Under the pieces are notes generated by a model. It saw nothing but the letters and a program-made list of their open reading frames with translations. It searched no databases and had not been told where the DNA came from. Positions 40,352 through 56,269 of a DNA stretch of 64,000 nucleotides are shown in pieces. Numbering within the stretch: the stretch's first letter is position 1; each line of letters begins with the position of its first letter. This DNA comes from a virus. The translations under genes were made by a program, and so were the position numbers. Where the stretch lies: the IMG/VR virus record IMGVR_UViG_3300015261_000001, positions 174,194 to 238,193 of that record, one strand, 5' to 3'.

Positions 40352-40999
40352 TTATTTCGGGTTTACGGAACGCTTCTTGCGTTTCGGTGTTTCCTTTGAA
40401 GCACGCAGTCGACGTTTACCTTCAGCGATTGCTTTCCATACACGGCAGCTGTTCGCTTTGCAGTACCAGTCGATCCACTTCGGATTGAGTCCATGACTGG
40501 TCTCGCCACGGTGGTCTGGTTCGTCAACCAGTTCTTTGGTAATCTCCACCAGTTCTTTGGTGATCCGGTTACCAGCTGCTAAGAGTTCTTCCGGTGACAT
40601 CGCTTTAACAGCAGCAATGGCTTCTTCCAGAATTTCGCCGTCGCGGAAAACACGTACAACGACTCCCTTCTTGTGGACATCAGTTTCGAGGTCCAGATCT
40701 ACACGACCCTTGCCCATGCTCCCGATAGAAGCATACGCCCGAGGACCGTTAATCGATTTATGTAGCTCGTCGTAATGTTCTGCCAGTTGAGCGGGGAGGT
40801 ACTTCTCGCGGAACTCAGGACGGATGGTCAACATGCCGTTGATTTCTTCCAGGTGCTCTTCTGGAATACGTTTACGGATGCTTTCATTACTCATGAGCAT
40901 TTCGATCTTGCCGTTACCAGCAGGTTCGTTGGCACGCAATGCAGCGAGACTCTGCATGCTGTTACCAAGAATAACTTTGTCACCTTTGTTCTTGCTCAT
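40352..40999 (-). CDS. W-x-x-W-Y module protein
   Basis: 215 residues. The C-terminal 50 residues hold one copy of the module repeated through this region: DEPDHRGETSHGLNPKWIDW, then Y-C-K-A-N-S...A-I-A-E-G-K-R-R-L. Upstream is a helical/beta domain (MGKGRVDLDLETDVHKKGVV; ELVEITKELV). Very basic tail (KETPKRKKRSVNPK). Start after GGAGGAGGGAG. Stop overlaps nothing; start overlaps the upstream stop by four bases. Function unknown. Confidence 0.87.
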   Translation of the reverse strand: MSKNKGDKVILGNSMQSLAALRANEPAGNGKIEMLMSNESIRKRIPEEHLEEINGMLTIRPEFREKYLPAQLAEHYDELHKSINGPRAYASIGSMGKGRVDLDLETDVHKKGVVVRVFRDGEILEEAIAAVKAMSPEELLAAGNRITKELVEITKELVDEPDHRGETSHGLNPKWIDWYCKANSCRVWKAIAEGKRRLRASKETPKRKKRSVNPK

Positions 41000-41217
41000 G
41001 GCTCCCTCCTCCTATTTTGTTTCAATTGACGCAAACGATTACGCCCAACCTGCATGGCGACCTGGTAATCCACGTTATGTTTCTGTGAATACCACAACGC
41101 CCACTTATGACTAACAGTGCCTGGAGGGGAGCCTTGTACATCAGGTTCTTTCCCCAACCGATCATCGCCTGTTAACTTATTCAACCAACCATCTAACCAA
41201 TCTTTTAATTTTGACAT
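40996..41217 (-). CDS. Small W-x-x-W-Y module protein
   Basis: 73 residues consisting mainly of one module: KEPDVQGSPPGTVSHKWALW, then YSQKHNVDYQVAMQVGRNRL. N-terminal amphipathic helix MSKLKDWLDGWLNKLTG and basic C-terminus (KQNRRREP). The smallest stand-alone version of the module, so the unit probably folds alone. ATGA overlap with the next gene. Confidence 0.85.
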   Translation of the reverse strand: MSKLKDWLDGWLNKLTGDDRLGKEPDVQGSPPGTVSHKWALWYSQKHNVDYQVAMQVGRNRLRQLKQNRRREP

Positions 41218-41225
41218 ATAGCTCC

Positions 41226-42245
41226 TTATTTAGTTATTTTGAGTTTTTCCCCGGCTTTACGGGCCTTCTTACCGAAGAGCTTTCTTGCTTCTTTGAAACG
41301 CGTGTCAGTACGTTTACCTGTGTGGCGTTTCATCAACCCATTGAACAGTCCGACCCTCATAGCTTCCCTGAATTCCGGGTTCATGGTCATTTGAGTTTCA
41401 AACCCGGTAATAACAGTCTTGCCACCGACAATGCTATCAACGATCGCGGCACGCGCCTTTGCTCGGTCCTCGCCGCTGACACCCATTGAACGCCCATCCC
41501 GGCCAGCCATGACACTACGAGCCATAGACGAACCGAAACCTTTGAAGGAATCACCCAGTGTCCGCAGAGCGTTCAACGGGTTGTCGAGTTCACCAGACTT
41601 CAGGCGATCGGTCAGTCCTTCTACCAAAACATCTTTGGCTTTGTCGGCTAAACTTTCCAACTCCACAGCGCAGATCTGGTCACCGTCGAAGTCACCCTTT
41701 TCTTGTGTGCCGTTGAAATCAGCGATAATGCTTTCGAGCACTTGCTCAACAGTCATATCTTTTTCTTTGGCGAGAGTCAGTAAGTCAAGTACCGTGAAGG
41801 TCTTCACTCTTGGTAGAGGTTGACCAGCCAATGAACCGATCCCCGGTTGTACAGAGAGTACTTGCATTGGATCAGCTGCGGTAATCAGCTTGGCCAAAGC
41901 AGTAATTGCTTCCTGTCGTGAAGAAGGAACCTCCACGTCTAGTAATGGGCTAGAGTTGTAGCTTCGGTCAATCCCCAGCTTGGCGCACACTTCTTTACCG
42001 AGAGCTTCACGAACTGCGAGATTACACTCACGGTCGATTTTGGAGATAACCACCAGCGCCTTACGACCGGATACCGACTTGAGCAGTTGCGACAAATGCA
42101 TTTCGCCTTTACCGATACGACCGTCAACGCTGATCGTGTGATTACCGACCTTTACCCAAGCTACTGCTTCTTTACCATCGCCTACACGGATAGGGTTAAA
42201 AGTTCTACCAGTAGTAGGTGCGGTGTTTTGGTTTTGCTTGCTCAT
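41226..42245 (-). CDS. Hypothetical protein with DFDGDQ motif
   Basis: 339 residues from the ATG at 42245 (AGGAG nine bases before). Residues 185-190 are DFDGDQ, preceded by EKG, resembling the NADFDGDQ metal loop of RNA polymerase beta-prime; however, the flanking sequence does not match the polymerase (no preceding PxL-H-x-x-S or LHP segment), so identity is doubtful. Other segments: ALVVISKIDRECNLAVREAL, VLDLLTLAKEKDMTVEQVLE and a basic C-terminus (KARKAGEKLKITK). Could be a split polymerase fragment, or an unrelated DxDGD metal protein. Confidence 0.85.
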   Translation of the reverse strand: MSKQNQNTAPTTGRTFNPIRVGDGKEAVAWVKVGNHTISVDGRIGKGEMHLSQLLKSVSGRKALVVISKIDRECNLAVREALGKEVCAKLGIDRSYNSSPLLDVEVPSSRQEAITALAKLITAADPMQVLSVQPGIGSLAGQPLPRVKTFTVLDLLTLAKEKDMTVEQVLESIIADFNGTQEKGDFDGDQICAVELESLADKAKDVLVEGLTDRLKSGELDNPLNALRTLGDSFKGFGSSMARSVMAGRDGRSMGVSGEDRAKARAAIVDSIVGGKTVITGFETQMTMNPEFREAMRVGLFNGLMKRHTGKRTDTRFKEARKLFGKKARKAGEKLKITK

Positions 42246-42516
42246 TTGGTGAATCTCCTGAATTGATTTTAGCCTTACCAGCATTGATGGCAATGTTGGT
42301 AGAAACGCGTTTACATGCTTTATACCACGTAACCCAAGCTGCGCTCAGTTTACCGCTAGCCGTCTTCAACGAAGGTGGGTCCATGCGAATGATTGCAGCT
42401 TGTTGCTGAGTGTGGGCTTCCAGATGGTCAACTCCCATCTGTTCTTGATAAGCCTTAGCCCACTCAGGGTTGATCTTCCCGTTAGGTAGGATCAATCGCG
42501 GGAGTTTGGTTTCCAT
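42205..42516 (-). CDS. Double W-x-x-W-Y module protein
   Basis: 103 residues with two module copies: GKINPEWAKAYQEQMGVDHL...A and DPPSLKTASGKLSAAWVTWY followed by K-A-C-K-R...A-I-N-A-G. Overlaps the downstream gene by 41 bases and the upstream gene by 25. AGGTGAAGC precedes the ATG. Function unknown. Confidence 0.85.
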   Translation of the reverse strand: METKLPRLILPNGKINPEWAKAYQEQMGVDHLEAHTQQQAAIIRMDPPSLKTASGKLSAAWVTWYKACKRVSTNIAINAGKAKINSGDSPNEQAKPKHRTYYW

Positions 42517-42674
42517 GCTTCACCTGTTACTGACAACCCCACGTCTTCCTTCTTGCGAACAAACGCCACGACATTAGTACTCCCGTCAATCATCTTGACG
42601 TGGTCAGGACTAAGTTCATGCAAATGCCGTAAACGCTTTAAATACGGCAACAACTCTCTGAGGCGTTCATCCAT
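42492..42674 (-). CDS. Small hypothetical protein
   Basis: 60 residues, MDERLRELLPYLKRLRHLHE, a leucine-rich helix followed by a beta hairpin (HVKMIDGSTNVVAFVRKKED). AAGGA six bases before the ATG. Overlaps the next gene by 25 bases. Function unknown. Confidence 0.78.
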   Translation of the reverse strand: MDERLRELLPYLKRLRHLHELSPDHVKMIDGSTNVVAFVRKKEDVGLSVTGEAWKPNSRD

Positions 42675-42683
42675 TACAGTTCC

Positions 42684-43493
42684 TTAGCCACTCACGACAA
42701 AGTGGAGTTTGGTTTTAGTGGATTCATCAGTCAACATGACAGTAGGGAACTGGGTCCAACCTGCCTTGTGAGTGACAAATTCAATCTTGAGGTTTGGGTT
42801 CAGCATTGCTGCTACTTCATCACCCATCGCCGCACGTTTCCAGATATTTGGGACGTTCAGCAGATCGTAGCCGCGCAGGTGGAACATCTTGCGGATGTTG
42901 CCGTAGCCCGACGCAGTTTCATGGAACAGGGTAGCAACGTTTTTCTGCACTTCTTTGGGAAGAGCATAGCCGTAGTACTTCGGATCCTTGGTAGTATTCG
43001 CAAGGACGCGGAAGTCGTAGTCGGCGGTACGTGGTGTGTAGATGAAAGTTTCACGACCCTTTGGTAGTTGAGCGTACAGCTCGTGCAACTCTACCGCCCA
43101 GAACATGATCGATTGCAGATCTTCCAGCTTGAAGCCGCCGCGAGCAAATTGCTCGATGTTAGTAAGGCTTTCTTCGCCATTGAGCAAGCCTTCGAACTGA
43201 ACGTACGGGTAACCGTCCAGCAGAGCCTTCAGCTCGACTTTGTTGTAAGAAGCAAGGCGAACCTTAGCCAGCAGGTATTCACTGCTGGTGTGCTCGCTCA
43301 GGACCTTGACAACGGTTTCTACTTCGTCAGCCTTAGCCGCCTTTTCCTTTTGGGTGTCGTTCGGCATGGCGTTGACGGTGATCACGTGTTTGATGACACG
43401 TTCGATCGGGGTGAGTTTACGACTGGTGTAGTTAGAAGCTGCATTCATACGAACTGCTTCATCACGAGTCAGGTAGTGCTTTACGTGCGACAT
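42684..43493 (-). CDS. Hypothetical protein, shares segment with 616-aa protein
   Basis: 269 residues. The segment VQFEGLLNGEESLTNIEQFA (about 103-122), then a helix L-E-D-L-x-S-I-M-F, matches FEGAIRNGEESLTHFTDHVR and DNLYNFL in the protein at 54378-56228, indicating a shared module. The C-terminal half is mixed alpha/beta (KIEFVTHKAGWTQFPTVMLT). GGAGG precedes the ATG. First gene after the promoter at 43535. Function unknown. Confidence 0.87.
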   Translation of the reverse strand: MSHVKHYLTRDEAVRMNAASNYTSRKLTPIERVIKHVITVNAMPNDTQKEKAAKADEVETVVKVLSEHTSSEYLLAKVRLASYNKVELKALLDGYPYVQFEGLLNGEESLTNIEQFARGGFKLEDLQSIMFWAVELHELYAQLPKGRETFIYTPRTADYDFRVLANTTKDPKYYGYALPKEVQKNVATLFHETASGYGNIRKMFHLRGYDLLNVPNIWKRAAMGDEVAAMLNPNLKIEFVTHKAGWTQFPTVMLTDESTKTKLHFVVSG

Positions 43494-43534
43494 GCATAAT
43501 CCTCCTGGATTACTGGGTTGTGTTATTCAGACTA

Positions 43535-43542
43535 GTAATATA
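43535..43542 (-). promoter_or_regulatory. phiKZ-type early promoter core TATATTAC
   Basis: Read leftward: ACATCTATATTACTAGTCTGAATAACAC; an exact match to the extended element, 42 bases before the start at 43493. Confidence 0.8.
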
Positions 43543-43593
43543 GATGTGAATACCGTTATAAGTTAACTTTAAGAACAAAAAAGAAAACCCTAA

Positions 43594-43625
43594 TACCTAC
43601 CAGCCCTTTGCGGGGCTGGTAGGTA
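43594..43625 (-). terminator. Rho-independent terminator
   Basis: TACCTACCAGCCC/GGGCTGGTAGGTA, 13-base-pair stem; leftward tail TTTTCTTTTTTGTTCTT. Ends the unit stopping at 43632. Confidence 0.88.
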
Positions 43626-43631
43626 AGGTGT

Positions 43632-43898
43632 TCAATGTGGTCGACGTTCTTTATTTGCTTTACGTCGTTCACGGAAGTTACTCGCCATCAACTGCATCTG
43701 GGTGTGGTTATTCCAGTAACGGTTGTTGGCTTCTTCCATTGTGCAGTCATACTTGTTGGTACACCAGAGTAACCACTCTGTTCTGTCACCTTTAGGCATC
43801 GGAAGCACAGGCTCCTTTACCACGGCCAGCAACTCATGAGCGTTCAACAACTCATCAAGGGATTGACCCATCTTGTACCGCACGCGTTTAACGTCCAT
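43632..43898 (-). CDS. Small protein with W-x-x-W module
   Basis: 88 residues from the ATG at 43898 (GGGGAT before), not the ATG at 43910. The centre, VLPMPKGDRTEWLLWCTNKY, then C-T-M-E-E-A-N-N, is a divergent module copy with W-C in place of W-Y. Basic C-terminus (NFRERRKANKERRPH). Function unknown. Confidence 0.8.
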   Translation of the reverse strand: MDVKRVRYKMGQSLDELLNAHELLAVVKEPVLPMPKGDRTEWLLWCTNKYDCTMEEANNRYWNNHTQMQLMASNFRERRKANKERRPH

Positions 43899-43900
43899 GC

Positions 43901-44254
43901 TTATCCCCACTGAAATAACAAATCTTGCCGATTACGCCATGAACTCTTAATGGCATCCCGATAGTATTGCCCACCCGGTGGAGAAGGAAATACACGCTCC
44001 GCGTCTTCCGGGTGAGGGTATTGCGGAGGAGAGCGTAATCCGATCATCTCATCGATGATCCTATCCTCTTCAGCAATTGCCAGTGTCAGGGCCTCTTCAG
44101 GAACAAACTTATCCTCTACCGCGCTTTGAAAGCTTAACCAATCTTCGTTTGGGGACCCATCAATTCGCCTTACTGGGGGTTCTTCAAACTTCACACCATA
44201 CCGCTGTAGGTCCGCCAGCGTGTAAAGCTTATTCAAAAGGCCGTAAGTTGACAT
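43901..44254 (-). CDS. Protein with degenerate W module
   Basis: 117 residues. VRRIDGSPNEDWLSFQSAVE, then F-V-P-E-E-A-L-T-L-A-I, looks like a degenerate module copy (W-L-x-F for W-x-x-W). Proline-rich middle (RSPPQYPHPEDAERVFPSPP). Overlap-free, three bases from the upstream stop. GAGG seven bases before the ATG. Function unknown. Confidence 0.82.
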   Translation of the reverse strand: MSTYGLLNKLYTLADLQRYGVKFEEPPVRRIDGSPNEDWLSFQSAVEDKFVPEEALTLAIAEEDRIIDEMIGLRSPPQYPHPEDAERVFPSPPGGQYYRDAIKSSWRNRQDLLFQWG

Positions 44255-44256
44255 GA

Positions 44257-44673
44257 CTATGCCTCTTCTTTAGACCAGAAGTGGAGCGGGTTATCCCCAC
44301 GCTCGCCGGTGGCTGGACGGAGAACACGAGTACTGTAACCTTCCGCCAAAGAAGCGTCGTCAGGACCAAAACTTTGTTCGAAGGGTAGTTCCATATCGGC
44401 GGGGCGCCCATCGCGCACGAAACCTAGTACCCAGTGCCCGTGGCTCTTATCTTTGTAATAGATAACAACCAGCAGATCCATGTGATACTCTTCGATCTTG
44501 ATGTCGAAGTGTTTCAGTGCTTCGAAGCTGTTTTCCTTCAAGTGCGTTTCAGCAATAAAGGCAATCAACGCCTCTTTAGTTGCAGGCATCACGGTGTGAG
44601 GAAAACCGCTGTCGTTAAACATGTCACGCTTAACAAATAGCATACGCGGTTCTTCGTTCTCTTCTAAGCTCAT
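44257..44673 (-). CDS. Hypothetical protein
   Basis: 138 residues, acidic N-terminus (MSLEENEEPRMLFVKRDMFN), alpha/beta centre (MDLLVVIYYKDKSHGHWVLG), C-terminus with loop-rich sequence (RVLRPATGERGDNPLHFWSK). AGGAG before the ATG. First gene of its unit. Function unknown. Confidence 0.84.
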   Translation of the reverse strand: MSLEENEEPRMLFVKRDMFNDSGFPHTVMPATKEALIAFIAETHLKENSFEALKHFDIKIEEYHMDLLVVIYYKDKSHGHWVLGFVRDGRPADMELPFEQSFGPDDASLAEGYSTRVLRPATGERGDNPLHFWSKEEA

Positions 44674-44695
44674 AACACTCTCCTAAATAAGTAAA

Positions 44696-44721
44696 CTACC
44701 TGCCGGGTGACCGGCAGGTAG
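44696..44721 (-). terminator. Rho-independent terminator
   Basis: CTACCTGCCGG-GTGA-CCGGCAGGTAG, 11-base-pair stem; leftward tail TTTACTTATTT. Confidence 0.85.
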
Positions 44722-44729
44722 TACGTCGC

Positions 44730-45290
44730 TTAACGCATCTTTGTAGGGGTTTGCAGACCGGTGTTGAAGGCATCGCGGGTCTTGCTGTCGGACACTACCT
44801 GGCAACGCTTGTCCATATCGAAACGAGGGAAGCCAGCGAACTTCAGCATGGTGCCTTTAACCAGATAGCCGAGTTCTTTGCGATACGCGGTGCAGACAGC
44901 GATCTTGCGAGTCTGAGCAATCTCGAACTCTTTCTGGCCGCCAGTAATCACATCAGCCAGTTTCTCACGCAGTACCGATTTCACTTCAGGGTTCTGTTCC
45001 TGAATCATCTGGAACACTGCCTGACTACCCTTATCACCGTAACGACCTTCAACTGCCGCCTTGATGACTTCCTTCACTTCTTCCGAGTACGCCGTGGCGT
45101 TACCGACCAGGTTGGCAATGCTGACGTTCACACGGCTCAGCACGTTCTCGGATTCCTCATCCTTTTGTTGGATGGTGGCTTCCGAAGTGATCGCACCGTC
45201 GTGGAGACTTTGATACATCAGGAACAACGTACCGCCAATGCCACCGAACAGCAACACCACAACAGCAACCACAATGCCAAAAGTTTTCAT
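44730..45290 (-). CDS. LemA-like membrane protein
   Basis: 186 residues. N-terminal membrane span (MKTFGIVVAVVVLLFGGIGG) followed by a long helical region whose middle (VLSRVNVSIANLVGNATAYS, then E-E-V-K-E-V-I-K-A-A) recalls the N-x-I-P-N-L-V-x-x-x-x-x-Y-x-x-x-E pattern of LemA proteins, which are anchored in the membrane with a helical-bundle domain. The next gene upstream encodes a TPM-like membrane protein, and lemA/TPM pairs are a known bacterial neighbourhood. Function in phages is unknown; a role at the infected-cell envelope is inferred. Confidence 0.83.
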   Translation of the reverse strand: MKTFGIVVAVVVLLFGGIGGTLFLMYQSLHDGAITSEATIQQKDEESENVLSRVNVSIANLVGNATAYSEEVKEVIKAAVEGRYGDKGSQAVFQMIQEQNPEVKSVLREKLADVITGGQKEFEIAQTRKIAVCTAYRKELGYLVKGTMLKFAGFPRFDMDKRCQVVSDSKTRDAFNTGLQTPTKMR

Positions 45291-45307
45291 GCTTCTTCCT
45301 TAATTAA

Positions 45308-46393
45308 TTAAGCAACGTCTTCTTTAATAACGAACCATGCCGCGCCAATTGCAAACAGCAAGTTGATCAGCGACACGATTAGCACCCACCAAGTAGGTGG
45401 GGTATAACCTTCACGCATGTACTCGAATTTACTATTCGGAATACGGGTGAAGTCTTGCACAATCTTCGCGTACTGCTCTTGCACCAGTTGGTCAGTAAGG
45501 TTCTTACCGTACGTCATGGTGGAAAGAGAACTCAGCAAGATCTGATTGTTTTGCCCATCAGCAAACGAGATCGCTCTCGACCACTGAATCTTTTCGTCGT
45601 CGTCAACCCCGTAGAACAGAATGACATCGTTCTTACGGGCACCTTTCCAATACTCCATCTGAGCATAGTAAAAGTCCGCATCGTTCTGAGTCACTACCAG
45701 GATGATGTTGAGCTGTTTATCGGCACCGTCCTTACGCAGCTTGTTATTCAGCCAGATGTTGATTCCGTCGTAGTCCCCGCCGTTGTCCTGTACCACTCGG
45801 TTAAAGCGGTAGTAGTCAAATGGCTTAGGATACTCGAACAACTTACCTTTGAACTTTTCCATGATGTTGGGATCGGTCTTGAATCGATCATCATCCAACA
45901 ACATGTAGTTACTGACATAACGACTTTCAGCAACTGGTTCGCCCGGATCAATCACACCCCAACGAGGAGGTTCACGCACCCCGCGACGGTCTATCCGGTC
46001 GATGGTCCACGTCCCTAAGGTCGTATGGACATCCCAATCAATATCGTAGTCGTGCTCGTCGCAATACACAGGTTCGCAGACACGCCGGGTAGTAACATTA
46101 CCCTTGGAGTCACGGTCACTGACATTGCTACAAGTTTCACCGCAGACGTATTGGTGGGAGCACGACACTTTAACGCTTGCCTTGTCCGTCACATAGCCGT
46201 TGAAGATACTGAAATCACCCGTCAGCGCAAAGGTCGACGAATAGATCAAACCGATCGAGATCACAGAACCGGCCAACAGCGCTAACAGTTGAAGCCCCCA
46301 TTCCTTAATGGTAATGTCCCGTTTCCAAATCAACTTGGAAAACAGTACAACCAACAATGCCGGGATAAACACTATCGGTAGATAGAACCCCAT
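45308..46393 (-). CDS. TPM-like membrane protein
   Basis: 361 residues. Two N-terminal spans (LPIVFIPALLVVLFSKLIW; LQLLALLAGSVISIGLIYSS), a large domain, and a C-terminal span (WWVLIVSLINLLFAIGAAWF). The loop after the second span has several cysteines (VSCSHQYVCGETCSNVSDR; VCEPVYCDEHD) likely to form disulphides, so it faces the periplasm. The part NIILVVTQNDADFYYAQMEY, W-K-G-A-R-K-N-D-V-I-L-F-Y-G-V-D, resembles TPM domains (VVVP, then W-x-G-x-K-x-x-x-N-G-V-L-L). Adjacent to the LemA-like gene. The assignment is pattern-based. Confidence 0.83.
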   Translation of the reverse strand: MGFYLPIVFIPALLVVLFSKLIWKRDITIKEWGLQLLALLAGSVISIGLIYSSTFALTGDFSIFNGYVTDKASVKVSCSHQYVCGETCSNVSDRDSKGNVTTRRVCEPVYCDEHDYDIDWDVHTTLGTWTIDRIDRRGVREPPRWGVIDPGEPVAESRYVSNYMLLDDDRFKTDPNIMEKFKGKLFEYPKPFDYYRFNRVVQDNGGDYDGINIWLNNKLRKDGADKQLNIILVVTQNDADFYYAQMEYWKGARKNDVILFYGVDDDEKIQWSRAISFADGQNNQILLSSLSTMTYGKNLTDQLVQEQYAKIVQDFTRIPNSKFEYMREGYTPPTWWVLIVSLINLLFAIGAAWFVIKEDVA

Positions 46394-46405
46394 TGCTATT
46401 CCTTG

Positions 46406-46741
46406 TTACTGAGTTGGTGGAAGAAAAGTTAATCCTTTCTGCTGATTCTCTTGAAAGAACCTTTGCAGTGTCTTGCTCCCTTCCTCGACAGGAGTTGCCG
46501 GTGGTGGAAGGTTTCTTTGACGCGACAGCAGTTCGGCAATGAACGTGCTGGCGTCGAAGTCGAATACCTCCAGCTTGTCGCCAGCAATTGGGGGCGGGAG
46601 GTAATAAACGCTCTGACCAGACATGAAGACAGCGACCATAAGACCGAGTGCTTCAAGGATACGACGATCAGTTTGTTTCTTTAACCATTCTTGCACGCGT
46701 TCATGATGACCCGCGGGGACTTTACTTCGATCCATTGTCAT
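46406..46741 (-). CDS. Hypothetical protein
   Basis: 111 residues from the ATG at 46741 (AAGGAG seven bases before), not the longer frame to 46822, which would overlap the next gene by 100 bases. Helix with one hydrophobic stretch (RILEALGLMVAVFMSGQSVY), then FDFDASTFIAELLSRQRNLP and a polar tail. Overlaps the upstream gene by 20 bases. Function unknown. Confidence 0.8.
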   Translation of the reverse strand: MTMDRSKVPAGHHERVQEWLKKQTDRRILEALGLMVAVFMSGQSVYYLPPPIAGDKLEVFDFDASTFIAELLSRQRNLPPPATPVEEGSKTLQRFFQENQQKGLTFLPPTQ

Positions 46742-46943
46742 GGGCTGTCTCCTTGGTTGAGAGAACATTGTCCAGATATTGATTGGTGTCAGCATCGACG
46801 GCTTCGAGTTTACTCTCGACACTGATTTCGCTTTGTGTGGGAAGCTCTTTCACAAGAACGAACTTGGCGTAAGCCCAGCCAAGGAAGTTAAGCAGGACGA
46901 TTACACTCATCCAGCTAACCAGGGTTTTGTTACTCTTTGTCAT
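46722..46943 (-). CDS. Small single-pass membrane protein
   Basis: 73 residues from the ATG at 46943 (AAGGA nine bases before). One membrane span (VSWMSVIVLLNFLGWAYAKF) after a basic N-terminus (MTKSNKTL), then a polar acidic domain (ELPTQSEISVESKLEAVDAD). Overlaps the end of the upstream gene by 14 bases. Part of a membrane-gene cluster at 44730-46943. Confidence 0.8.
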   Translation of the reverse strand: MTKSNKTLVSWMSVIVLLNFLGWAYAKFVLVKELPTQSEISVESKLEAVDADTNQYLDNVLSTKETAHDNGSK

Positions 46944-47835: not shown

Positions 47836-47847
47836 GGTGCGTACTCC

Positions 47848-48315
47848 TTAACGTATTAAAGCCTGAGCCAGTGCAACGGCTTCATGGGGCTTCATGTTGT
47901 CTCGACGGCAAGTGTCCATCACCCAACGCTGGGAAATGTAGACACCGTTTGCTGTTAGGATTTTTGGTGGCTTCTGAGGTAATTCAATCTCCTTAGAAGC
48001 GATCTCACTCCGCAGGATGAGATAGACTGCATAAGCAACCCGTCTCAACTCTGGAGGGAACTCCATTGGGTCTGCAAACTCCTTGAAGTTCTCAATACCC
48101 GATTCACCACGCACCAGAATGTGCTGAAGCCACGACACCCAGAACATGGAAAGCCCGTTCGTGAATGTCGTAAAAATGGTGGGTTCTTCAGGATGAGCAA
48201 CGTAATGACCATCCTGCACGATCCCTCGTACAAAGGGGATCTTGAAATAACGAGTGTCTGCTACCTGCAACTTAAGCTGGTCAACAAACAAATTCCGACC
48301 TTTCTCCTCACCCAT
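47848..48315 (-). CDS. Protein with degenerate W modules
   Basis: 155 residues from the ATG at 48315 (AAGGAG six bases before). Contains EEPTIFTTFTNGLSMFWVSW, which matches the E-P-x-x-F...W-x-x-W form of the local module, and a C-terminal NGVYISQRWVMDTCRRDNMK, then P-H-E-A-V-A-L, a second divergent copy. Function unknown. Confidence 0.83.
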   Translation of the reverse strand: MGEEKGRNLFVDQLKLQVADTRYFKIPFVRGIVQDGHYVAHPEEPTIFTTFTNGLSMFWVSWLQHILVRGESGIENFKEFADPMEFPPELRRVAYAVYLILRSEIASKEIELPQKPPKILTANGVYISQRWVMDTCRRDNMKPHEAVALAQALIR

Positions 48316-48440
48316 GCTGGTCTCCTTAGAAAAAGTAGCTATACGGTAGATCACCATACATTACTAACCACCGGCCATCGTAGACTCCGTAAGCTCTATG
48401 AGACCGATGGATAACAACATAGATTTTCCTACCTCGGTGA

Positions 48441-49067
48441 TCACGCCCGACGTAATGTATATTCCTCGTCATCGTCACCTACTCCCGAACTCAAGATGTA
48501 GTGGATCTGTGACTTGCTGAATGCTACATACTGCGGTTTATCGTCAATACCGAAGCCTTTACCCCCGTGGATAGCCCCGTCGTAGCCTAAGCGGGCTATA
48601 CGACCCACTTCAGCGTTGGACGCGAAGAACTTAAAGGCATCGAAGTAAAGCGGCTCTACGCGCGCTTCAGGGTCCTTCAGATACTCTGTTACCGATTTGA
48701 AACGCTTCTCGGCATTGATACCGTAGTTCCAGCCATCGGTCTTTTCGATCTCAAAAGAGAATCGCAAAGCAATACGACGCGCTTCGGAACTACCCAGGCG
48801 GTTGACGAGAGTGGACAACTCCAACATGGGATTGTCCGGTTGGTTAATGAAAAGATGTTTCATCCGCAATTGCACCGGGAATACACGCGGCGCGTCACAA
48901 TCCAAATCACGGACGCCAAACGGGGAAGCTACCATGCTGGCCGTTTCTTTATCCCCTTCGAAATAAATCGAGCGGATACTGGTGCGGATATGGTTGTCAT
49001 CCGCGGAAGAGCGCTCACCCCGATAAACGACTAACGGTTTTCCATCCACACCTTTAAGAAAGGTCAT
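48441..49067 (-). CDS. ADP-ribosyltransferase-like protein (ART-PolyVal type)
   Basis: 208 residues. The layout fits the ADP-ribosyltransferase domain known from polyvalent and phage proteins: GKPLVVYRGERS with Arg16, then IYFEGDKETASMVAS (the strand-and-helix that places the nicotinamide), VFPVQLRMKHLFIN (the usual VYPV-L-x-x-x-x-P strand), and at the end LGYDGAIHGG followed by QYVAFSKSQIHYI, the D-G-x-I...V-x-F...Q-I pattern. Catalytic residues would be Arg16, a residue near Phe36-Glu37 and the Gln-Ile strand. Probably modifies a host protein; target unknown. T4 Alt and Mod proteins are a functional analogy only. AGGAG precedes the ATG. Confidence 0.83.
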   Translation of the reverse strand: MTFLKGVDGKPLVVYRGERSSADDNHIRTSIRSIYFEGDKETASMVASPFGVRDLDCDAPRVFPVQLRMKHLFINQPDNPMLELSTLVNRLGSSEARRIALRFSFEIEKTDGWNYGINAEKRFKSVTEYLKDPEARVEPLYFDAFKFFASNAEVGRIARLGYDGAIHGGKGFGIDDKPQYVAFSKSQIHYILSSGVGDDDEEYTLRRA

Positions 49068-49084
49068 GATTTACTCCTGGATTA

Positions 49085-49705: not shown

Positions 49706-49746
49706 TCAACAACTCCTGTTAGGTAATAGAAAGTTAGACGCGTGAT

Positions 49747-49754
49747 ATTTTATG
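49747..49754 (+). promoter_or_regulatory. Candidate late promoter ATTTTATG
   Basis: Same octamer as before the virion cluster at 8117. Its last three bases form an in-frame ATG (49752) with no ribosome site, so if this is the promoter core, translation of the gene must begin at the ATG at 49797. Confidence 0.4.
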
Positions 49755-49796
49755 TTTAACAACCCTGCCCAAACACCACACCAGGACGCATTACGT

Positions 49797-50885
49797 ATGG
49801 ACGAAGCACTAGACGAAGACTTCGGCTTGGCCGAACCGGAACACCTCGAAACGATGTTTGAAGCACTCGAAGACACCCTTGTAGCGGGTACCGAGTCGCT
49901 GTCGCTGACCGCGGCGCAAAGCTACGCCCTTACCGTACTGCGTTCCAGTGGTGATGTAACTCGGGCTGATCTCGTTACCGGTACTGAAGGTTTCTTCAGC
50001 GCTATCGGCGAGGGTGCTGCAAAGATCTGGGCTTACATTAAGAAAATGTTCCAAGGCATCTGGGACTGGTTCTTCGGTAAGAAAGAAAGTGGTCCGTCCA
50101 TCACTGAACAGACCGAGAACATGTTGAAGGCTAACCAGGAATCGCTCAAGAACTGGGCGCGTGCTGATGCAGCCAACAGCGAAGCAATGGCCAAACAGTT
50201 CAGTTCTGTAGCGGACATGCTGGACGACCTGATGAAGACCGGCGACACCAGCGAGCAGAACAAAGCTCGTGAAGCCAAAGTCGAGTTGCATAAAGCTCTG
50301 ACTCTGCAACCAGGTCAGCGTGCTCACGCTGTCAAGGAAGCGACTGAAGTCGTGGTGAAACTCAACCGTCGTGTACAACGCGCGATTGAAGAGCTGTGCC
50401 ATCAGGGTATCGAAAGCAACAAACAGTATCTGGCTCTGGTGAATGAAGATCATTCCGCCAGCTTCAACGGCACTGGTTATGCCGATGATTACGCCAAGTT
50501 CAAAGAGTGGAGCAAAGGGTTCGAGAAAGTTTCGGTAGCACCTTACCTGAACATCCCGAAAGGTCTGACCAAGCTGGAGCATGCTGAACGCGCCCAGGGT
50601 GACCTGCTCAAAGTTATCGGGGACATCAAGCTGGAAATCCAAGGTATCAGCTCCACCTTCAAGTCTTCCGTTATTGGCAAGATCAAGAAGCTGGAAGAAC
50701 TGCTGAGCCGCAACAACTTGTCCCCAACCAACAGCGACAAGTTCCGTAAAGATCTGACAGCGTGCAAGATCTTCCTCGGTCTGACCACCCGTCACATCAA
50801 GCAACTCGAACGCACCCAAGAACTCGTCAAACGCCTGAGCAACATGATCATGCGTCTGTTCGGCCTGCGTCCAAGCAAAGCGTAA
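49797..50885 (+). CDS. Putative internal head (inner-body) protein
   Basis: 362 residues from the ATG at 49797, which has AGGA ten bases before; an in-frame ATG at 49752 has no ribosome site and overlaps a promoter-like octamer. The acidic N-terminus, then VTGTEGFFSAIGEGAAKIWA and YIKKMFQGIWDWFFGKK, resembles phiKZ-type head proteins, which have a propeptide cut after a small-x-Glu site and then a basic amphipathic segment. GTE followed by GFF could be the cut. The rest is a long helical domain. One of only two plus-strand units, in line with late structural genes. Role inferred. Confidence 0.82.
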   Translation: MDEALDEDFGLAEPEHLETMFEALEDTLVAGTESLSLTAAQSYALTVLRSSGDVTRADLVTGTEGFFSAIGEGAAKIWAYIKKMFQGIWDWFFGKKESGPSITEQTENMLKANQESLKNWARADAANSEAMAKQFSSVADMLDDLMKTGDTSEQNKAREAKVELHKALTLQPGQRAHAVKEATEVVVKLNRRVQRAIEELCHQGIESNKQYLALVNEDHSASFNGTGYADDYAKFKEWSKGFEKVSVAPYLNIPKGLTKLEHAERAQGDLLKVIGDIKLEIQGISSTFKSSVIGKIKKLEELLSRNNLSPTNSDKFRKDLTACKIFLGLTTRHIKQLERTQELVKRLSNMIMRLFGLRPSKA

Positions 50886-50897
50886 ATCAAAACGTAC

Positions 50898-50929
50898 CCT
50901 ACCTCCAGCACGTAAGTGCTGGAGGTAGG
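50898..50929. terminator. Bidirectional terminator
   Basis: CCTACCTCCAGCAC-GTAA-GTGCTGGAGGTAGG, 14-base-pair perfect stem between convergent genes; T-runs follow on both sides (GCGTTTTGTTT rightward, TACGTTTTGATT leftward). Confidence 0.88.
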
Positions 50930-50944
50930 TATGTCGCGTTTTGT

Positions 50945-51622
50945 TTATTCTTTATGTTTGTTGCGTTCAGCTTCGAGTACCTTGACACCTTCGTCGTGGA
51001 TTACTTCCAATGAACGGGTGTGGTCACGATCACTCTGCCACAGCACCCAGAGCAACGACAGATGACCAGAAGGGGTTACCATCGAAGGGCCGGAGTTGCC
51101 AAAAATACTCGGTTCCAGTGGTGTGGTGCGAGGCTGTTGCATCAAACGCACACTCAACCCTTTGCAGACATCGATCAGGCTTTGCGGATTACCTGGATTA
51201 CGGTTGAGCATGTACATCACCCAAGGATGGTCTTCCATGTCTGCTTCTTTGTAGAAGAGACTTGGTTCTTCTGGAGTGGCTGGGTAACGCCCGCTGTTAC
51301 GCAGGTGATTGGTGTAGGCGTTACTGGGATATTCTGTTTGCGGTCCGCCGCCGTACGCATACGCGCCTTGGAAACCATTGGTATTGAAACCAGGCATGCC
51401 AAAAGGCATCGAATAACCGGCCGCTACACCGCGAGGGTTGATAGTGTTCTCACGCAGGAAACCGATCATGCGTTGTTGCAGTTCCAGCATGTGCATAGTA
51501 CCGGCGGCAATAGCGTCTTGTACGCTGCAAGCGGTGCGCTGGGAATACCACTGAACCCACATCGGGTGCAGAGCGCCGGTGCTGGTGTCGATCAGAGGTG
51601 GTTGGCCATTGAACATTTGCAT
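50945..51622 (-). CDS. Multi-copy W-x-x-W-Y module protein
   Basis: 225 residues with at least three module copies: STGALHPMWVQWYSQRTACS (N-terminus), EPSLFYKEADMEDHPWVMYM, and EPSIFGNSGP, then GHLSLLWVLWQSDRDHTRSL near the C-terminus. The middle is glycine/tyrosine-rich (GMPGFNTNGFQGAYAYGGGP), likely flexible. Close to the next gene in sequence, so the two are paralogues. AAGGAG before the ATG. Function unknown. Confidence 0.87.
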   Translation of the reverse strand: MQMFNGQPPLIDTSTGALHPMWVQWYSQRTACSVQDAIAAGTMHMLELQQRMIGFLRENTINPRGVAAGYSMPFGMPGFNTNGFQGAYAYGGGPQTEYPSNAYTNHLRNSGRYPATPEEPSLFYKEADMEDHPWVMYMLNRNPGNPQSLIDVCKGLSVRLMQQPRTTPLEPSIFGNSGPSMVTPSGHLSLLWVLWQSDRDHTRSLEVIHDEGVKVLEAERNKHKE

Positions 51623-51658
51623 AGTGAAACTCCTTACAAGGGATTATTATTCACTCTA

Positions 51659-51666
51659 ATGATGTA
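51659..51666 (-). promoter_or_regulatory. Degenerate early promoter core TACATCAT
   Basis: Read leftward: ACCTCTACATCATTAGAGTGAATAAT. Core differs at two bases but the flanks, including TAG-x-x-TGAATAA, match the consensus. 37 bases before the start at 51622. Confidence 0.5.
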
Positions 51667-51706
51667 GAGGTGTCTTATTTTAAAACTTAAAACAAAAAGG
51701 AACTCA

Positions 51707-51732
51707 CCCTCCTCCTCCGAAGAGAAGGAGGG
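51707..51732 (-). terminator. Rho-independent terminator
   Basis: CCCTCCT/AGGAGGG stem with a 12-base loop; leftward tail CCTTTTTGTTTTAAG. Ends the gene stopping at 51750. Confidence 0.75.
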
Positions 51733-51749
51733 CAAGCAGAAGAGGTTAC

Positions 51750-52235
51750 TTATTCGTCTAGCCCGTGGTAGGCCAGAGCGTGTTGATGTGCTTCGATCCA
51801 AGTGCAATCGAAAGCGTACTTGTACCAGATAACCCACTTGAGCGTAGGTGTCAAAGGCTTACCTGCTAACAGGTCAGGAACGGTGTTCATATCTACTTGT
51901 CGCGGGTGCTCAGTGACAAGCTGTTGCTTTACACGGTTAGCTTCATCCCACAGCGCCAGATGACCCTTACTCGGATTACGACGTAACCACCAACTTGCCC
52001 ATCGCTCGTTGATGTGGTTAGGTGTTTCAGAGAAGATTGATGGCTCATCATCTGCTGGTTGATAATGCAATCGATCGAGGTCATAACTGAACTCAGTCGG
52101 TTTGATTGGAACAGGTTTGGGTATTTCAGACGGGGTACAACTTACTGGAACTAACTGTTTGCCAAAGACAGCGAAGATTCCTCGAATAACGGTGAATGGG
52201 ATGTGGGACTGTACACGTCGAAAGAACCGCTTCAT
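51750..52235 (-). CDS. Double W-x-x-W-Y module protein
   Basis: 161 residues. Basic N-terminal segment with a hydrophobic stretch (MKRFFRRVQSHIPFTVIRGI), a proline-rich linker (SEIPKPVPIKP) and two modules: DDEPSIFSETPNHINERWAS, then W-W-L-R-R-N-P, and LTPTLKWVIWYKYAFDCTWI, then E-A-H-Q-H-A. The first copy is closest to the middle copy of 50945-51622 (EPS-x-F...W...L-x-R-N-P). AGGG before the ATG. Function unknown. Confidence 0.85.
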   Translation of the reverse strand: MKRFFRRVQSHIPFTVIRGIFAVFGKQLVPVSCTPSEIPKPVPIKPTEFSYDLDRLHYQPADDEPSIFSETPNHINERWASWWLRRNPSKGHLALWDEANRVKQQLVTEHPRQVDMNTVPDLLAGKPLTPTLKWVIWYKYAFDCTWIEAHQHALAYHGLDE

Positions 52236-52270
52236 TGCGGAAAATACCCTGTATTGAAAAGTTGGTGTAA

Positions 52271-52290
52271 GGGGTGAGTAGAATCACCCC
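52271..52290 (-). terminator. Hairpin terminator
   Basis: GGGGTGA-GTAGAA-TCACCCC; leftward tail TTACACCAACTTTTCAATAC. 22 bases past the stop at 52312. Confidence 0.65.
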
Positions 52291-52311
52291 CGGTGTAACA
52301 AGTTACTTTGG

Positions 52312-52638
52312 TTACGGCTGGCTCTTGTCGCAGATACCACTGGTACCTACCAGTGAGGTGCCGTAGCGGTCGCCCTGTTTCCAGTCTTCCACTAAAACAT
52401 CCCACTTGCCACCGATGCGGACATTCTCGGCTCGATTCCTGCTACAACTCAGTCGCTGGTCATGATAGACCAAAGAAGACCCTACTACTTTCAGGTCAAC
52501 CTTACTGTTACTCTTCGACTTCAGAGAGACACCAACTACTTCCATGGTCACTCGTTCAGACTTGGTAACAATACGTTCTTCAAAACATCCTGCCAGCAGT
52601 ACCGACAGGATGATTGGGATACAGTAAAGCCCTTTCAT
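52312..52638 (-). CDS. Small lipoprotein
   Basis: 108 residues from the ATG at 52638. Lipobox LLAGC with Cys18 follows a typical signal segment (MKGLYCIPIILSVLLAGCFE), so the protein should be lipidated and exported to the envelope. The mature part is beta-rich and charged (VTMEVVGVSLKSKSNSKVDL). Phage lipoproteins can block receptors against superinfection; this is only an analogy. Overlaps the upstream stop (TGATG). Confidence 0.85.
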   Translation of the reverse strand: MKGLYCIPIILSVLLAGCFEERIVTKSERVTMEVVGVSLKSKSNSKVDLKVVGSSLVYHDQRLSCSRNRAENVRIGGKWDVLVEDWKQGDRYGTSLVGTSGICDKSQP

Positions 52639-53039
52639 CAATCTTCCTTAGGGAAAGAGCGACCGGCAAGCTGAACAGTCAGATCTTTGCCATCTTCCGA
52701 TTTGGTGATGTAGATAGTCACGACACCAACACCCGGATGATGGACGTGACCATTCTTGTCCATTTGCACGAGCGCGAGTTCTACCGTGGTGAGGGTGGTT
52801 TCCGAAGAACCCAAGATTGCCTCGACCAACGGTTTTGCATCCTTACGGGTCAGATAACCAGCCAGGATACCGAGACGAGCAATGCCATTCTCGCGATCTT
52901 CGATCACACCGGCGTCAGCCAGTTCTTCAGCCACGCCTTCTTCAGGAGAGTCCTTCAGAAAGGTACGATGACCGTATTGGTCGCCCATCAGAACAACTTG
53001 AGTTTGAATGATGTAGTACGGAGTTTTGCGTTGAGTCAT
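52638..53039 (-). CDS. Paralogue pair B, member 1
   Basis: 133 residues. TPYYIIQTQVVLMGDQYGHR, GVIEDRENGIARLGILAGYL and a beta-rich C-terminus align with the gene just upstream (VYVIQTQVDFVVESALHYSL; AVFKDREVGIMHMGLMAGYI), showing a tandem duplication. The alternating hydrophobic strands suggest a small alpha/beta fold. AAGGAG before the ATG. Function unknown. Confidence 0.86.
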   Translation of the reverse strand: MTQRKTPYYIIQTQVVLMGDQYGHRTFLKDSPEEGVAEELADAGVIEDRENGIARLGILAGYLTRKDAKPLVEAILGSSETTLTTVELALVQMDKNGHVHHPGVGVVTIYITKSEDGKDLTVQLAGRSFPKED

Positions 53040-53049
53040 GACACTCTCC

Positions 53050-53466
53050 TTACAGAGAAATTAGCGGAGAACCCGCTGGGTTGGTATTCAGTTTACCGAA
53101 CGTAACGCGAACTGGCTCGCCGTGACCGGTCGTTACGTACAAATCAAGTACAGCAGCAATCTCACCCAACTCAAGGGTGTCTTGCTTGATTTCGCGCAAA
53201 ACGATGTGGATGGTAGTTCTTCTCTGAGTCGGTTCTCGAGAAATGATCTTTACTAACAAATCATTGTGCCCGGGGTAGCCCCGATGACTGATATAACCAG
53301 CCATCAGACCCATGTGCATGATGCCGACTTCACGATCCTTGAAGACCGCAGCCAGATTCAAGTTATCACTAACTCCTTCTTGTGGAAGACCCAGTGAATA
53401 ATGAAGAGCGCTTTCAACAACAAAATCAACCTGCGTTTGAATCACGTACACTTTTGGGAGGTCCAC
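53050..53466 (-). CDS. Paralogue pair B, member 2, GTG start
   Basis: 138 residues starting at GTG (53464-53466) with AAGGAG eight bases before. See member 1 for the alignment; this copy has a longer loop after GYISHRGYPG and a different C-terminus (VTFGKLNTNPAGSPLISL). Conserved DRE/DREN and AGY suggest a shared functional site. Function unknown. Confidence 0.85.
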   Translation of the reverse strand: MDLPKVYVIQTQVDFVVESALHYSLGLPQEGVSDNLNLAAVFKDREVGIMHMGLMAGYISHRGYPGHNDLLVKIISREPTQRRTTIHIVLREIKQDTLELGEIAAVLDLYVTTGHGEPVRVTFGKLNTNPAGSPLISL

Positions 53467-53468
53467 GT

Positions 53469-53708
53469 TTACTTCTCCTTGAGCGGTTCGCAGGTAACAG
53501 TCAAGGTCACGTTACCTTTACGCGCCTTGAGTTCACCACGCTTGGTGGAGTAGATGTGGTTTTCCAGGTTGTTGTGTTCAACCGTTTGACGCATTGCCGA
53601 CTGACACATGTCCGAGTCAGACAGAACATCACTTGTCTGAGACAGCGTAGGTGGCGCCGACGGATTGACAATGGTCAGGGTAGATAAAAGCAGTGCTTTC
53701 GTTAACAT
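53469..53708 (-). CDS. Small secreted protein
   Basis: 79 residues from the ATG at 53708 (AAGGAT seven bases before), giving a short signal peptide (MLTKALLLSTLTIVNPSAPP). The mature part has two cysteines (DMCQSAMRQT; VTCEPLKEK) that may pair. Probably periplasmic. Function unknown. Confidence 0.78.
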   Translation of the reverse strand: MLTKALLLSTLTIVNPSAPPTLSQTSDVLSDSDMCQSAMRQTVEHNNLENHIYSTKRGELKARKGNVTLTVTCEPLKEK

Positions 53709-53712
53709 CAAT

Positions 53713-54075
53713 TCAATCCTTTTCAATAACCGGAGTGATCACGAAATCCTCATCCCCGCCGGGTGTATGGGACGCTGTGAACGTCTTCATGAGGCGGAAG
53801 GCGTCAGCCGGTGTAAAGGTGCCGTTACTGGTCAGCTCGACCCCTACACACATGTCACCGTCTTTCTCGAAGGACAGCGTGGCCACCCAAGGGCCGTTAG
53901 CACGGTAAACGCCAACACGGTCCTTACCAAAGGAGCAGAAGTCCATCGAGAACAGAGTCTGCTTCTCAGGATTCTCGTCGGTGATGATGTAAACCAGCGG
54001 ATGGAACTTTTCGGCATTGCCATTGGAGTGTGACATAGCCAACCATTCACCCATCAGCTTATCCAATTTATCCAT
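53713..54075 (-). CDS. Hypothetical protein
   Basis: 120 residues, acidic, mixed alpha/beta: FHPLVYIITDENPEKQTLFS, GPWVATLSFEKDGDMCVGVE, AFRLMKTFTASHTPGG. GAGGG eight bases before the ATG. Five bases from the next gene downstream, so co-translated. Function unknown. Confidence 0.84.
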   Translation of the reverse strand: MDKLDKLMGEWLAMSHSNGNAEKFHPLVYIITDENPEKQTLFSMDFCSFGKDRVGVYRANGPWVATLSFEKDGDMCVGVELTSNGTFTPADAFRLMKTFTASHTPGGDEDFVITPVIEKD

Positions 54076-54078
54076 GAT

Positions 54079-54381
54079 TCAGACCCTCGTTCGCACAACG
54101 TGGTAGATAAAGATTTCGACGTCATCGTGTGAGTTGTAACACTCATGCCGCCATTCTTTCTTTTCGATATCCTCAAGCGCAAACTCGGCCTGAAGAATCT
54201 TTTCGACACCTTTACGAATAGAAACGCCGTCAGGCAAATCGAGGTTCTGGCCAATAGACCAGTTCAACCATTCCCGACGGATGAAGCGTTTGGGAACTTG
54301 ACCTTCTTCCCGTTCGATCCTGAAACACTCTGGCTCAGGACCGAGAAGCTTTGCTTTGAACTCACTTACCTGTATCTTCAT
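54079..54381 (-). CDS. Small protein with degenerate W module
   Basis: 100 residues. GPEPECFRIE, then RRE-WLNWSIGQNLDLPDGV and S-I-R-K-G-V-E-K-I-L, resembles the local module (P-E-P...W-x-x-W...G...L). Acidic helical end (FALEDIEKKEWRHE). Overlaps the upstream gene in an ATGA junction. Function unknown. Confidence 0.82.
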   Translation of the reverse strand: MKIQVSEFKAKLLGPEPECFRIEREEGQVPKRFIRREWLNWSIGQNLDLPDGVSIRKGVEKILQAEFALEDIEKKEWRHECYNSHDDVEIFIYHVVRTRV

Positions 54382-56228
54382 TTATTTGCTCGCAGTATCG
54401 TGTTAGTGAGGCGTCCGTTCAGTTCGGAGAGCCGTTCCATACCGACTTGATAAGCAGCTCCGTGGTAAACGCTTTGTGTGCGCATATACCAGTCAATCCA
54501 ATTACTGGATAAATCAGCGGTGCCGCGGTCGATCAGTTCCGGTTCTGGATCTTTCACAACGACGTTCTGTTTAGGGCCATCAACCCCAATGCGTTTTTCC
54601 AACTGGTCTTGTAGACGCAGCAGCAATTTCATGCCTTCACGAGTTGCATGGGCAATGGTGGTGTCATGTTTCTTGACATACCAGTTAACCCATTCATCGC
54701 TAACGTCAATGAAACGCAGATCGATGAACTGAGGTTCTGGATCTTCCTGAGGAGCAGGCGGGAACTTTTTGGGTAGGGAGTCCAACATTTCCAAGTGTTC
54801 CCAGCTTGCCTTTGGAAGTTCTCTGGCGTAGGCTTCATTTACTTTGTCGAGTAGCTCTATGAATTCCTCAACACTCCAGTCGGTGCACACTGGATAGACG
54901 CCACGAGTACCAGCAGGCGGAATGAGCGCCTTAACTCGCTGATAACGAGCGGTAGGTCCCAGATAGTCCGCAATCAGAACAACCTGGTCAGTTGTATCGT
55001 TCTCGCGGATCATGAAACCTTCCATGTCATCCAGTTTGAACTGAACTCCCACCTCCCCGGTGCTCTTTGTATCCATCAGTTGTTTATAAAGCTCTGTTTC
55101 GCGCAGGGCTTCATAAGCGTTGTGTAGAGCATCTGGAATGATCTCGTACTGACCTGTTAAGAAGTTGTAGAGGTTATCCCAGCTAAAGCGTACATGGTCG
55201 GTGAAGTGGGTAAGGCTTTCTTCGCCGTTACGGATTGCCCCTTCAAACACAAAAGTTCCTTCATCTTTGATTAACAAAGTGAAAGGGTAGTCGGCAGGGC
55301 TTTCAGGATTATTGTAAAGCTCACAGCGGTAATGATCTTTCTGAAAGTGAAACTTACCGATCTTGCTCATTGCCATAGCAGTCTTGTACACCGAACTGTT
55401 ACGGAAGATCTGGAACGCTGTGTGGATACGCTCAGCGTGAGTAGGTTCTGGTTGGGATGGCTTTTCCATGATTTCGCCTTGAGTCAAGATATCTACTGTT
55501 TGTTCTAAGGTGAGACTACCGTTACCGCCGGTCAGGCTCACCATTCCATTTGGACCGACGATGAACTCGGTTAACGAGACATTGTCGTTTGTTTTAAGTT
55601 TAACGCAGGTGGTGTGGTCGTTAGGTTTCAAAAGACCGAGATAGTAATTAACACCGGCGTAAGTGATGATCGAGAAGTTCCATGCGTTGCTCAGCATTTC
55701 TTTCTCGAGGATCGTTTTGATCGCTGTGACCGAGGTGATCGCTTTACTCAGGATCTGAAACATCACGTGTTCTGGATTAGAGTTGTCGTAGGGTTTAACC
55801 ACGCTGTACGACGGAGCCTTGAATATATCAAGGAATTGGTCAACACTAATGGCCGGGGTAAATACTCGCACGTCCAATGAATCCGCGTCACCAATCAACG
55901 AATCATTAGGCGGGCACAACGGCAAGTGTTTAATGAAAGGCCATTCGATCTCACCCAGCACACCGTTCCAAGCGTCTTTCCTGCACTCTGTCTTGAACAC
56001 GTTGATAAACAGGATATGACTGCCATTCTCTTTCACATGGCGGGTAAAAGAGAAGCTGCATTTGATAGCTTCTTTTTCCACCAGTCCCTTACGACCAGGG
56101 ATGAGGATGGGGTTGAACTCGATCACTTCACCAACTTCAGGTAATTGCGGTAGATCGCAAACAATGCGCTGAAGTACCACGAATAAATCTAGTCTTTCTT
56201 GTTTGTTTGGTGTGCAACGAATGCCCAT
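54378..56228 (-). CDS. 616-aa modular protein with two W-x-x-W-Y modules
   Basis: 616 residues, the largest gene of the right half. The first 490 residues appear to be four related units, each ending in a short helix after a strand: TPAISVDQFLDIF, GNGSLTLEQTVDIL, FSWDNLYNFLTG and TDWSVEEFIELLDK. Two are preceded by similar helices (FQIFRNSSVYKTAM; YEALRETELYKQLM). FEGAIRNGEESLTHFTDHVR is shared with 42684-43493. The C-terminus has two adjacent modules: DVSDEWVNWYVKKHDTTIAH and DLSSNWIDWYMRTQSVYHGA, each after D-P-E-P. AAGGAG before the ATG. Function unknown; probably a multi-domain binding protein. Confidence 0.88.
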   Translation of the reverse strand: MGIRCTPNKQERLDLFVVLQRIVCDLPQLPEVGEVIEFNPILIPGRKGLVEKEAIKCSFSFTRHVKENGSHILFINVFKTECRKDAWNGVLGEIEWPFIKHLPLCPPNDSLIGDADSLDVRVFTPAISVDQFLDIFKAPSYSVVKPYDNSNPEHVMFQILSKAITSVTAIKTILEKEMLSNAWNFSIITYAGVNYYLGLLKPNDHTTCVKLKTNDNVSLTEFIVGPNGMVSLTGGNGSLTLEQTVDILTQGEIMEKPSQPEPTHAERIHTAFQIFRNSSVYKTAMAMSKIGKFHFQKDHYRCELYNNPESPADYPFTLLIKDEGTFVFEGAIRNGEESLTHFTDHVRFSWDNLYNFLTGQYEIIPDALHNAYEALRETELYKQLMDTKSTGEVGVQFKLDDMEGFMIRENDTTDQVVLIADYLGPTARYQRVKALIPPAGTRGVYPVCTDWSVEEFIELLDKVNEAYARELPKASWEHLEMLDSLPKKFPPAPQEDPEPQFIDLRFIDVSDEWVNWYVKKHDTTIAHATREGMKLLLRLQDQLEKRIGVDGPKQNVVVKDPEPELIDRGTADLSSNWIDWYMRTQSVYHGAAYQVGMERLSELNGRLTNTILRANK

Positions 56229-56269
56229 TACTGAACTCCTTGTTTGATAGGGGTTACTTAGTCACCTAA

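Follow-up and report, generated by a model that had tools for sequence, protein, structure and literature searches.

A Lineage-Specific W-x-x-W-Y Module, Predicted To Form a Helical Hairpin, Is Expanded in an EL-Like Jumbo Phage

Introduction

Expanded small domains are already known in jumbo phages: in Bacillus phage G, a zinc ribbon occurs about 35 times (PMC7824862). Besides, phiKZ is known to use early proteins on host ribosomes, and phiKZ014 and EL gp099 represent an early ribosome-binding factor (PMC10914614). Promoter motifs have been published for EL (WTTTYAAACCTACATTATY) and phiKZ (TATATTAC) (PMC7058600), and in every phage with profiled transcripts, motifs of this kind turned out to be early promoters (PMC7598289).

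Here, we describe a small module found in a 238,193-base virus record (IMG/VR record IMGVR_UViG_3300015261_000001). The stretch analyzed, called the window below, comprises 64,000 nucleotides (bases 174,194 to 238,193 of the record), and its genes are referred to by their first window coordinate. PHROGs matches in the window comprise an NAD-dependent DNA ligase, a DNA polymerase, an RNA polymerase beta subunit, and tail proteins, and among named phages the closest matches come from Pseudomonas phage EL and strains of it, with 69% identity in the polymerase and 52% in one tail protein; therefore, the record represents an EL-like jumbo phage. GXNNE2, an EL strain, is classed in the Chimalliviridae, genus Elvirus.

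Results and Discussion

Recovery of the module family by profile

The initial annotation of this DNA described a 30-residue unit in about ten minus-strand proteins between positions 40352 and 56228. We searched all ORFs of the 238-kb record with leave-one-protein-out profiles, from each of which the tested protein was excluded. Genes 40996, 50945, 40352, 54378, 42205, and 51750 were recovered with E values of 1.6e-11, 1.9e-10, 8.7e-7, 9.8e-6, 1.4e-4, and 5.7e-4, respectively, and no profile match to the shuffled ORFs used as a control fell below an E value of 0.3. The same runs retrieved an extra copy outside the window at genome positions 31,182 to 31,328 (minus strand; E values of 1.3e-5 to 3.6e-4), so the family is not confined to the stretch first outlined. 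Gene 47848, which was absent from the profile seed, was found with an E value of 1.2e-4, and both of its copies are kept in two relatives. The first module of gene 42205 is weak by itself and clear in orthologues, and the middle copy of gene 50945, weak with the profile, is supported by blastp likeness (E value of 1.3e-4) to the 51750-type tandem.

The sure members are thus seven window genes (40352, 40996, 42205, 47848, 50945, 51750, and 54378) and an eighth at genome 31 kb, and their module measures about 45 rather than 30 residues (Table 1). Three further genes counted earlier were not retrieved. Gene 43632, a possible diverged member, was missed by the leave-one-out profiles and reached an E value of 0.4 with a refined model, but its EP...W-L-L-W-C...EA motif is shared by an orthologue of 47% identity from IMG/VR record G006 (3300046694). 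With the same model, gene 43901 scored at noise level (E value of 22) and gene 54079 gave no reported match, so that the membership of these two is unsupported.

As the initial annotation had stated, the module corresponds to no named family in the libraries searched. Pfam-A and PHROGs gave nothing above threshold over the module (two Pfam matches in 54378 lie below curated cut-offs), PADLOC gave no match, and the best PDB match by sequence profile, monoamine oxidase B (E value of 0.86), was chance-level. No description of the module was found in the open-access literature, subscription papers being outside that search. Searches by tblastn with the 616-aa, 225-aa, and 73-aa proteins against phage records returned nothing convincing, bacterial and archaeal genomes, scanned once with the 42205 family, yielded no relative, and in a direct scan with the module alignment conservation was too low for patterns. 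The fusion of copies to unrelated domains was also borne out, the fused parts showing no detectable relationship to one another.

Table 1. Module copies and promoter-like sites in the window
Feature	Position	Strand	Evidence
Module at C-terminal end of gene 40352-40999	40391..40528	-	Leave-one-out E 8.7e-7
Module forming most of gene 40996-41217 (73 aa, plus one N-terminal helix)	41017..41154	-	Leave-one-out E 1.6e-11; AlphaFold2
Second module, gene 42205-42516	42253..42384	-	Protein E 1.4e-4; orthologues EL gp133, G002, G006; tandem model
First module, gene 42205-42516	42379..42516	-	Weak alone; clear in orthologues; predicted fold as second module
Possible diverged member (EP...WLLWC...EA)	43632..43910	-	Profile E 0.4; motif kept in 47%-identical G006 orthologue
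Second module, gene 47848-48357, W-V-M-D variant	47848..47979	-	Protein E 1.2e-4; conserved in two relatives
First module, gene 47848-48357, N-terminal half only matched	48130..48192	-	Domain E 0.005; conserved in orthologues
Third module, gene 50945-51622	50963..51100	-	Aligned with 51750-type tandem
Second, diverged module, gene 50945-51622	51143..51271	-	blastp E 1.3e-4 vs G002 tandem protein (second and third copies)
First module, gene 50945-51622	51473..51616	-	Leave-one-out domain E 6.5e-7
Second module, gene 51750-52235, W-V-I-W-Y	51756..51890	-	Orthologues in G002, G006
First module, gene 51750-52235	51915..52055	-	Leave-one-out protein E 5.7e-4; orthologues
Second module, gene 54378-56228, C-terminal end	54417..54554	-	Leave-one-out protein E 9.8e-6
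First module, gene 54378-56228	54603..54749	-	Profile search
Early-type promoter upstream of run 42684, 42492, 42205, 41226, 40996, 40352	43520..43553	-	PWM 34.9; gene spacing
Weaker promoter-like site CTCTACATCATTAGAGTGAATAA in intergenic gap ahead of gene 50945-51622	51645..51680	-	By eye; below PWM threshold
Early-type promoter directly upstream of gene 54378-56228	56255..56288	-	PWM 39.7, best of 21 in genome

Distribution, synteny, and history

Module matches were found in EL, where gp084 and gp133 are the proteins concerned and gp133 has two modules, and likewise in GXNNE2, MIZ-Pa99, and vB_PQ1, as well as in two IMG/VR records, G006 and G002 (3300013713). At E values up to 1, the profile found no module in RisingSun, Joad, Miami, Aphrodite1, FishSpeaker, OBP, CF8, VB_ZK_P1, phiKp_32, Vibrio phage 2 TSL-2019, or pEt-SU; nothing being detectable in these eleven distant jumbo phages leaves room for undetectable relatives. 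A candidate at positions 12956 to 13009 of Klebsiella phage Miami (E value of 0.029; tblastn E value of 5) was rejected as chance, because it is out of frame with the annotated gene and fades with a larger profile.

The window cluster is syntenic with EL gp124 to gp139 and with the corresponding stretches of G002 and G006, and the number of module proteins is eight in this phage, four in G002, three in G006, and two in EL. These data support well the conclusion that the module is a lineage-specific domain family of EL-lineage jumbo phages, most heavily expanded in the present one. In a tree of the modules (49 columns, with many forks unresolved), tandem positions cluster across phages (51750A, 51750B, and 47848B, starred), and therefore the pairs predate these phages; 54378A and 54378B group together (98/79). 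A plus-strand gene (49752-50885) stands alone amid the minus-strand cluster and has opposite-strand orthologues in G002 and G006 with about 41% identity.

The differing copy number from phage to phage and the shortness of the proteins might be taken to mean that small proteins were duplicated neutrally, with no selected specific role. We regard this as highly improbable, because orthologues in different phages are recognizable at 29 to 37% identity with many invariant positions, and because the module of gp084 is unchanged between EL and GXNNE2 whereas the rest of the protein varies (8 of 8 amino acid substitutions lie outside the module).

Predicted fold and conservation

The AlphaFold2 model of the 73-aa 40996 protein begins with a helix, continues with an extended segment that is bridged, and ends with helices at residues 37 to 47 and 51 to 71, with a pLDDT of 83.8 overall and 89 to 97 over the module; this agrees with the earlier suggestion of a helix pair. 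In the model of the 103-aa tandem protein 42205, the elements are repeated (helices 17 to 27 and 31 to 44, then 59 to 69 and 73 to 86; pLDDT of 92 to 96), so that the same elements are predicted in all three copies and none of these segments is predicted to fold differently. These two models, which are predictions and not structures, were made from alignments that left out two rows and in both of which paralogues were mixed, and therefore they share information. We conclude with good confidence that each copy is predicted to form a helical hairpin behind a short bridged extended EP segment.

When the single-module model was searched with Foldseek against viral models, both of the top two hits were EL proteins (probabilities of 0.96 and 0.98; E values of 0.12 and 0.21), and their sizes, 143 and 89 aa for the first and second, agree with gp084 and gp133. 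Fold searches of the PDB gave no E value below 1.8 and Z scores of at most 3.3, which does not mark the fold as new. Homeodomain helices showed a weak likeness only (Foldseek E value of 1.8 or worse; VIA-align Z of 2 to 3). Together with the basic character of some copies (EL gp133B, +8; 42205B, +6; 40996, +5), this likeness would fit small proteins that bind the DNA or RNA of phage or host through homeodomain-like helices, but other copies are acidic (EL gp084, -5; 54378A, -4; 51750B, -3) and the PDB gave no significant match, which makes such a role quite improbable.

All aligned copies share one tryptophan; the second tryptophan and an alanine are near-invariant, and the helix cap is Ser or Asn in 24 of 26 copies. 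Conservation in helix 1 follows hydrophobicity (r = 0.94); in helix 2 the tie is weak (r = 0.20, 64 degrees apart), the kept positions being small Ala and Gly, with Lys or Arg at one position in 14 of 23 copies. A helix-moment permutation test, which is a weak test, gave p values of 0.19 and 0.05. With core and burial assigned from sequence pattern, the positions conserved across copies appear to be mostly core and helix cap, as a packed hairpin requires. At non-core positions, identity is 39% among orthologues versus 12% between paralogues (6% by chance), as separate binding faces would give, although paralogues are older than orthologues and the surface divergence may partly reflect time; the net charge of the copies spans -5 to +8.

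These patterns bear on the idea, put forward in the initial annotation, of an adaptor with one common partner, in which all copies dock on one shared protein (for example, the chaperonin, a factor of the host, or a compartment component such as the nucleus shell), where each fused part would have its own job. Such an arrangement would account for a single module fused to unrelated parts, for avidity from tandem copies, and for the K/R-rich helix 2 position that copies have in common, and the invariant W-x-x-W could be partly exposed. However, core and helix cap account for most invariant positions, and at other positions paralogues differ, the charge even changing sign. The chaperonin itself is a poor candidate: the Cpn60 family is present in 14 of 15 jumbo phages tested, nine of them without any module found, on which ground we rejected it as a specific partner. 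Likewise, a published description counts ChmA of the nucleus shell among the core proteins of all Chimalliviridae (PMC11724907), but only EL-lineage phages gave module matches. We therefore consider a common partner unlikely; if there is one, a host factor or a compartment component is a possible candidate. In the window, the Cpn60 gene (E value of 5.2e-31) is located at 31158-32672 on the minus strand.

Rather unlikely, in our judgment, is a self-assembly module whose copies bind each other to give homo- or hetero-oligomers. The recurrence of tandem pairs, the small, hydrophobic hairpins, and the additional helix at the N terminus of 40996, which has a single module, are in keeping with it, but the non-core positions differ between copies, which disfavors general cross-binding. 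There is a similarly small chance that the module is a multivalent docking unit of EL-like phages that brings some eight early proteins together in a single complex or in a body associated with a compartment, i.e., a lineage-specific organizing system in a nucleus-forming family.

Promoters and gene cluster

A PWM for an early-type promoter motif, about TTTCARACCTATATTACY, which resembles both the EL and the phiKZ motifs, found 21 sites in the genome, all 21 on the minus strand, and 0 in shuffled sequence. Those in the window (minus strand) lie at 8034, 23372, 30072, 32798, 39270, 43543, 56278, and 58433, and most module proteins are encoded in the region marked by these early-gene promoters; in the PWM scan, 51750 and 47848 were without a clear promoter of their own. 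In EL, annotated phage promoters occur in both module-gene regions. Judging from the promoters, the module genes are probably expressed early.

Other genes of the cluster, all on the minus strand where coordinates are given, are of several kinds. Gene 48441-49067, amid the module genes, is ADP-ribosyltransferase-like (phrog_8642, E value of 8e-22; Pfam ART-PolyVal, E value of 0.0018, below the cut-off) and is a candidate host-modifying enzyme; a GNAT acetyltransferase gene lies in the same cluster. Gene 45308-46393 is a relative of phrog_2087 (E value of 2e-117), and gene 44730-45290 is a relative of phrog_1383, a virion structural protein (E value of 8e-53). Since this virion structural relative lies in the cluster, the cluster is not purely early, and accessory and conserved genes are mixed in it. 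Gene 41226-42212, which matched no family and for which the clusters of the relatives have no orthologue, contains a DFDGDQ stretch; its resemblance to the motif with which RNA polymerase beta prime binds metal may be chance. Genes 52638-53039, 53050-53466, and 56347-57015 have, by eye, alike N-terminal starts (Y-x-IQTQV or YAIQARV), as if they formed another small family of paralogues.

A proposed scaffold with diverged faces

We tentatively favor the explanation that the module is a lineage-specific scaffold domain of early accessory proteins, the diverged faces of which bind different host or phage targets during takeover. The neighboring ADP-ribosyltransferase-like and acetyltransferase genes are in keeping with this, as is the action of early phiKZ proteins on host ribosomes (PMC10914614). 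In such a unit, some 45 residues long, the chain would first run extended through an E-P-x-hydrophobic segment that contains a short bridge and would then reach the Ser/Asn helix cap; helix 1 would bear W-x-x-W-Y, and, after a turn, the A-x-x-x-G/A-x-x-x-L stripe of helix 2 would pack on the tryptophans. An ancestral tandem pair would have undergone duplication and fusion with other parts, to the greatest extent in the present phage, and the genes would be transcribed early by the virion RNA polymerase. The core would be fixed, and the surface would be kept within each orthologous line and differ between lines; therefore, each protein would most likely bind its own host (or phage) target in takeover. 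Against separate targets stands the helix 2 Lys/Arg position, which could be a shared contact. We infer the packing details, the target binding, and the diversification only with hesitation.

Comparison with known systems

The grouping unites unannotated genes of EL-type phages, which are laboratory phages of Pseudomonas aeruginosa, as a single family whose fold is predicted. Should different copies recognize different host targets, the family would offer a panel of takeover proteins ready for use; should the copies instead bind each other, or all bind a single partner, this would reveal a new organizing system among jumbo phages. Both gp133 of EL, with two modules in 89 aa, and gp084 are of a size that permits direct testing. 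These two hypothetical proteins carry the same module by profile and structure search and occupy syntenic positions, and EL has two proteins with three copies, compared with eight proteins and 13 or more copies here.

The module is undescribed and is contained in no library that we searched. Like the zinc ribbon of Bacillus phage G (PMC7824862), it is a small domain multiplied in one phage lineage; unlike that zinc ribbon, it is without a conserved Cys/His zinc set and occurs in tandem pairs and fusions. With phiKZ014 and EL gp099 the likeness is an analogy of working only, in that there, too, a related jumbo phage makes a small early protein whose host target is bound as soon as infection starts (PMC10914614).
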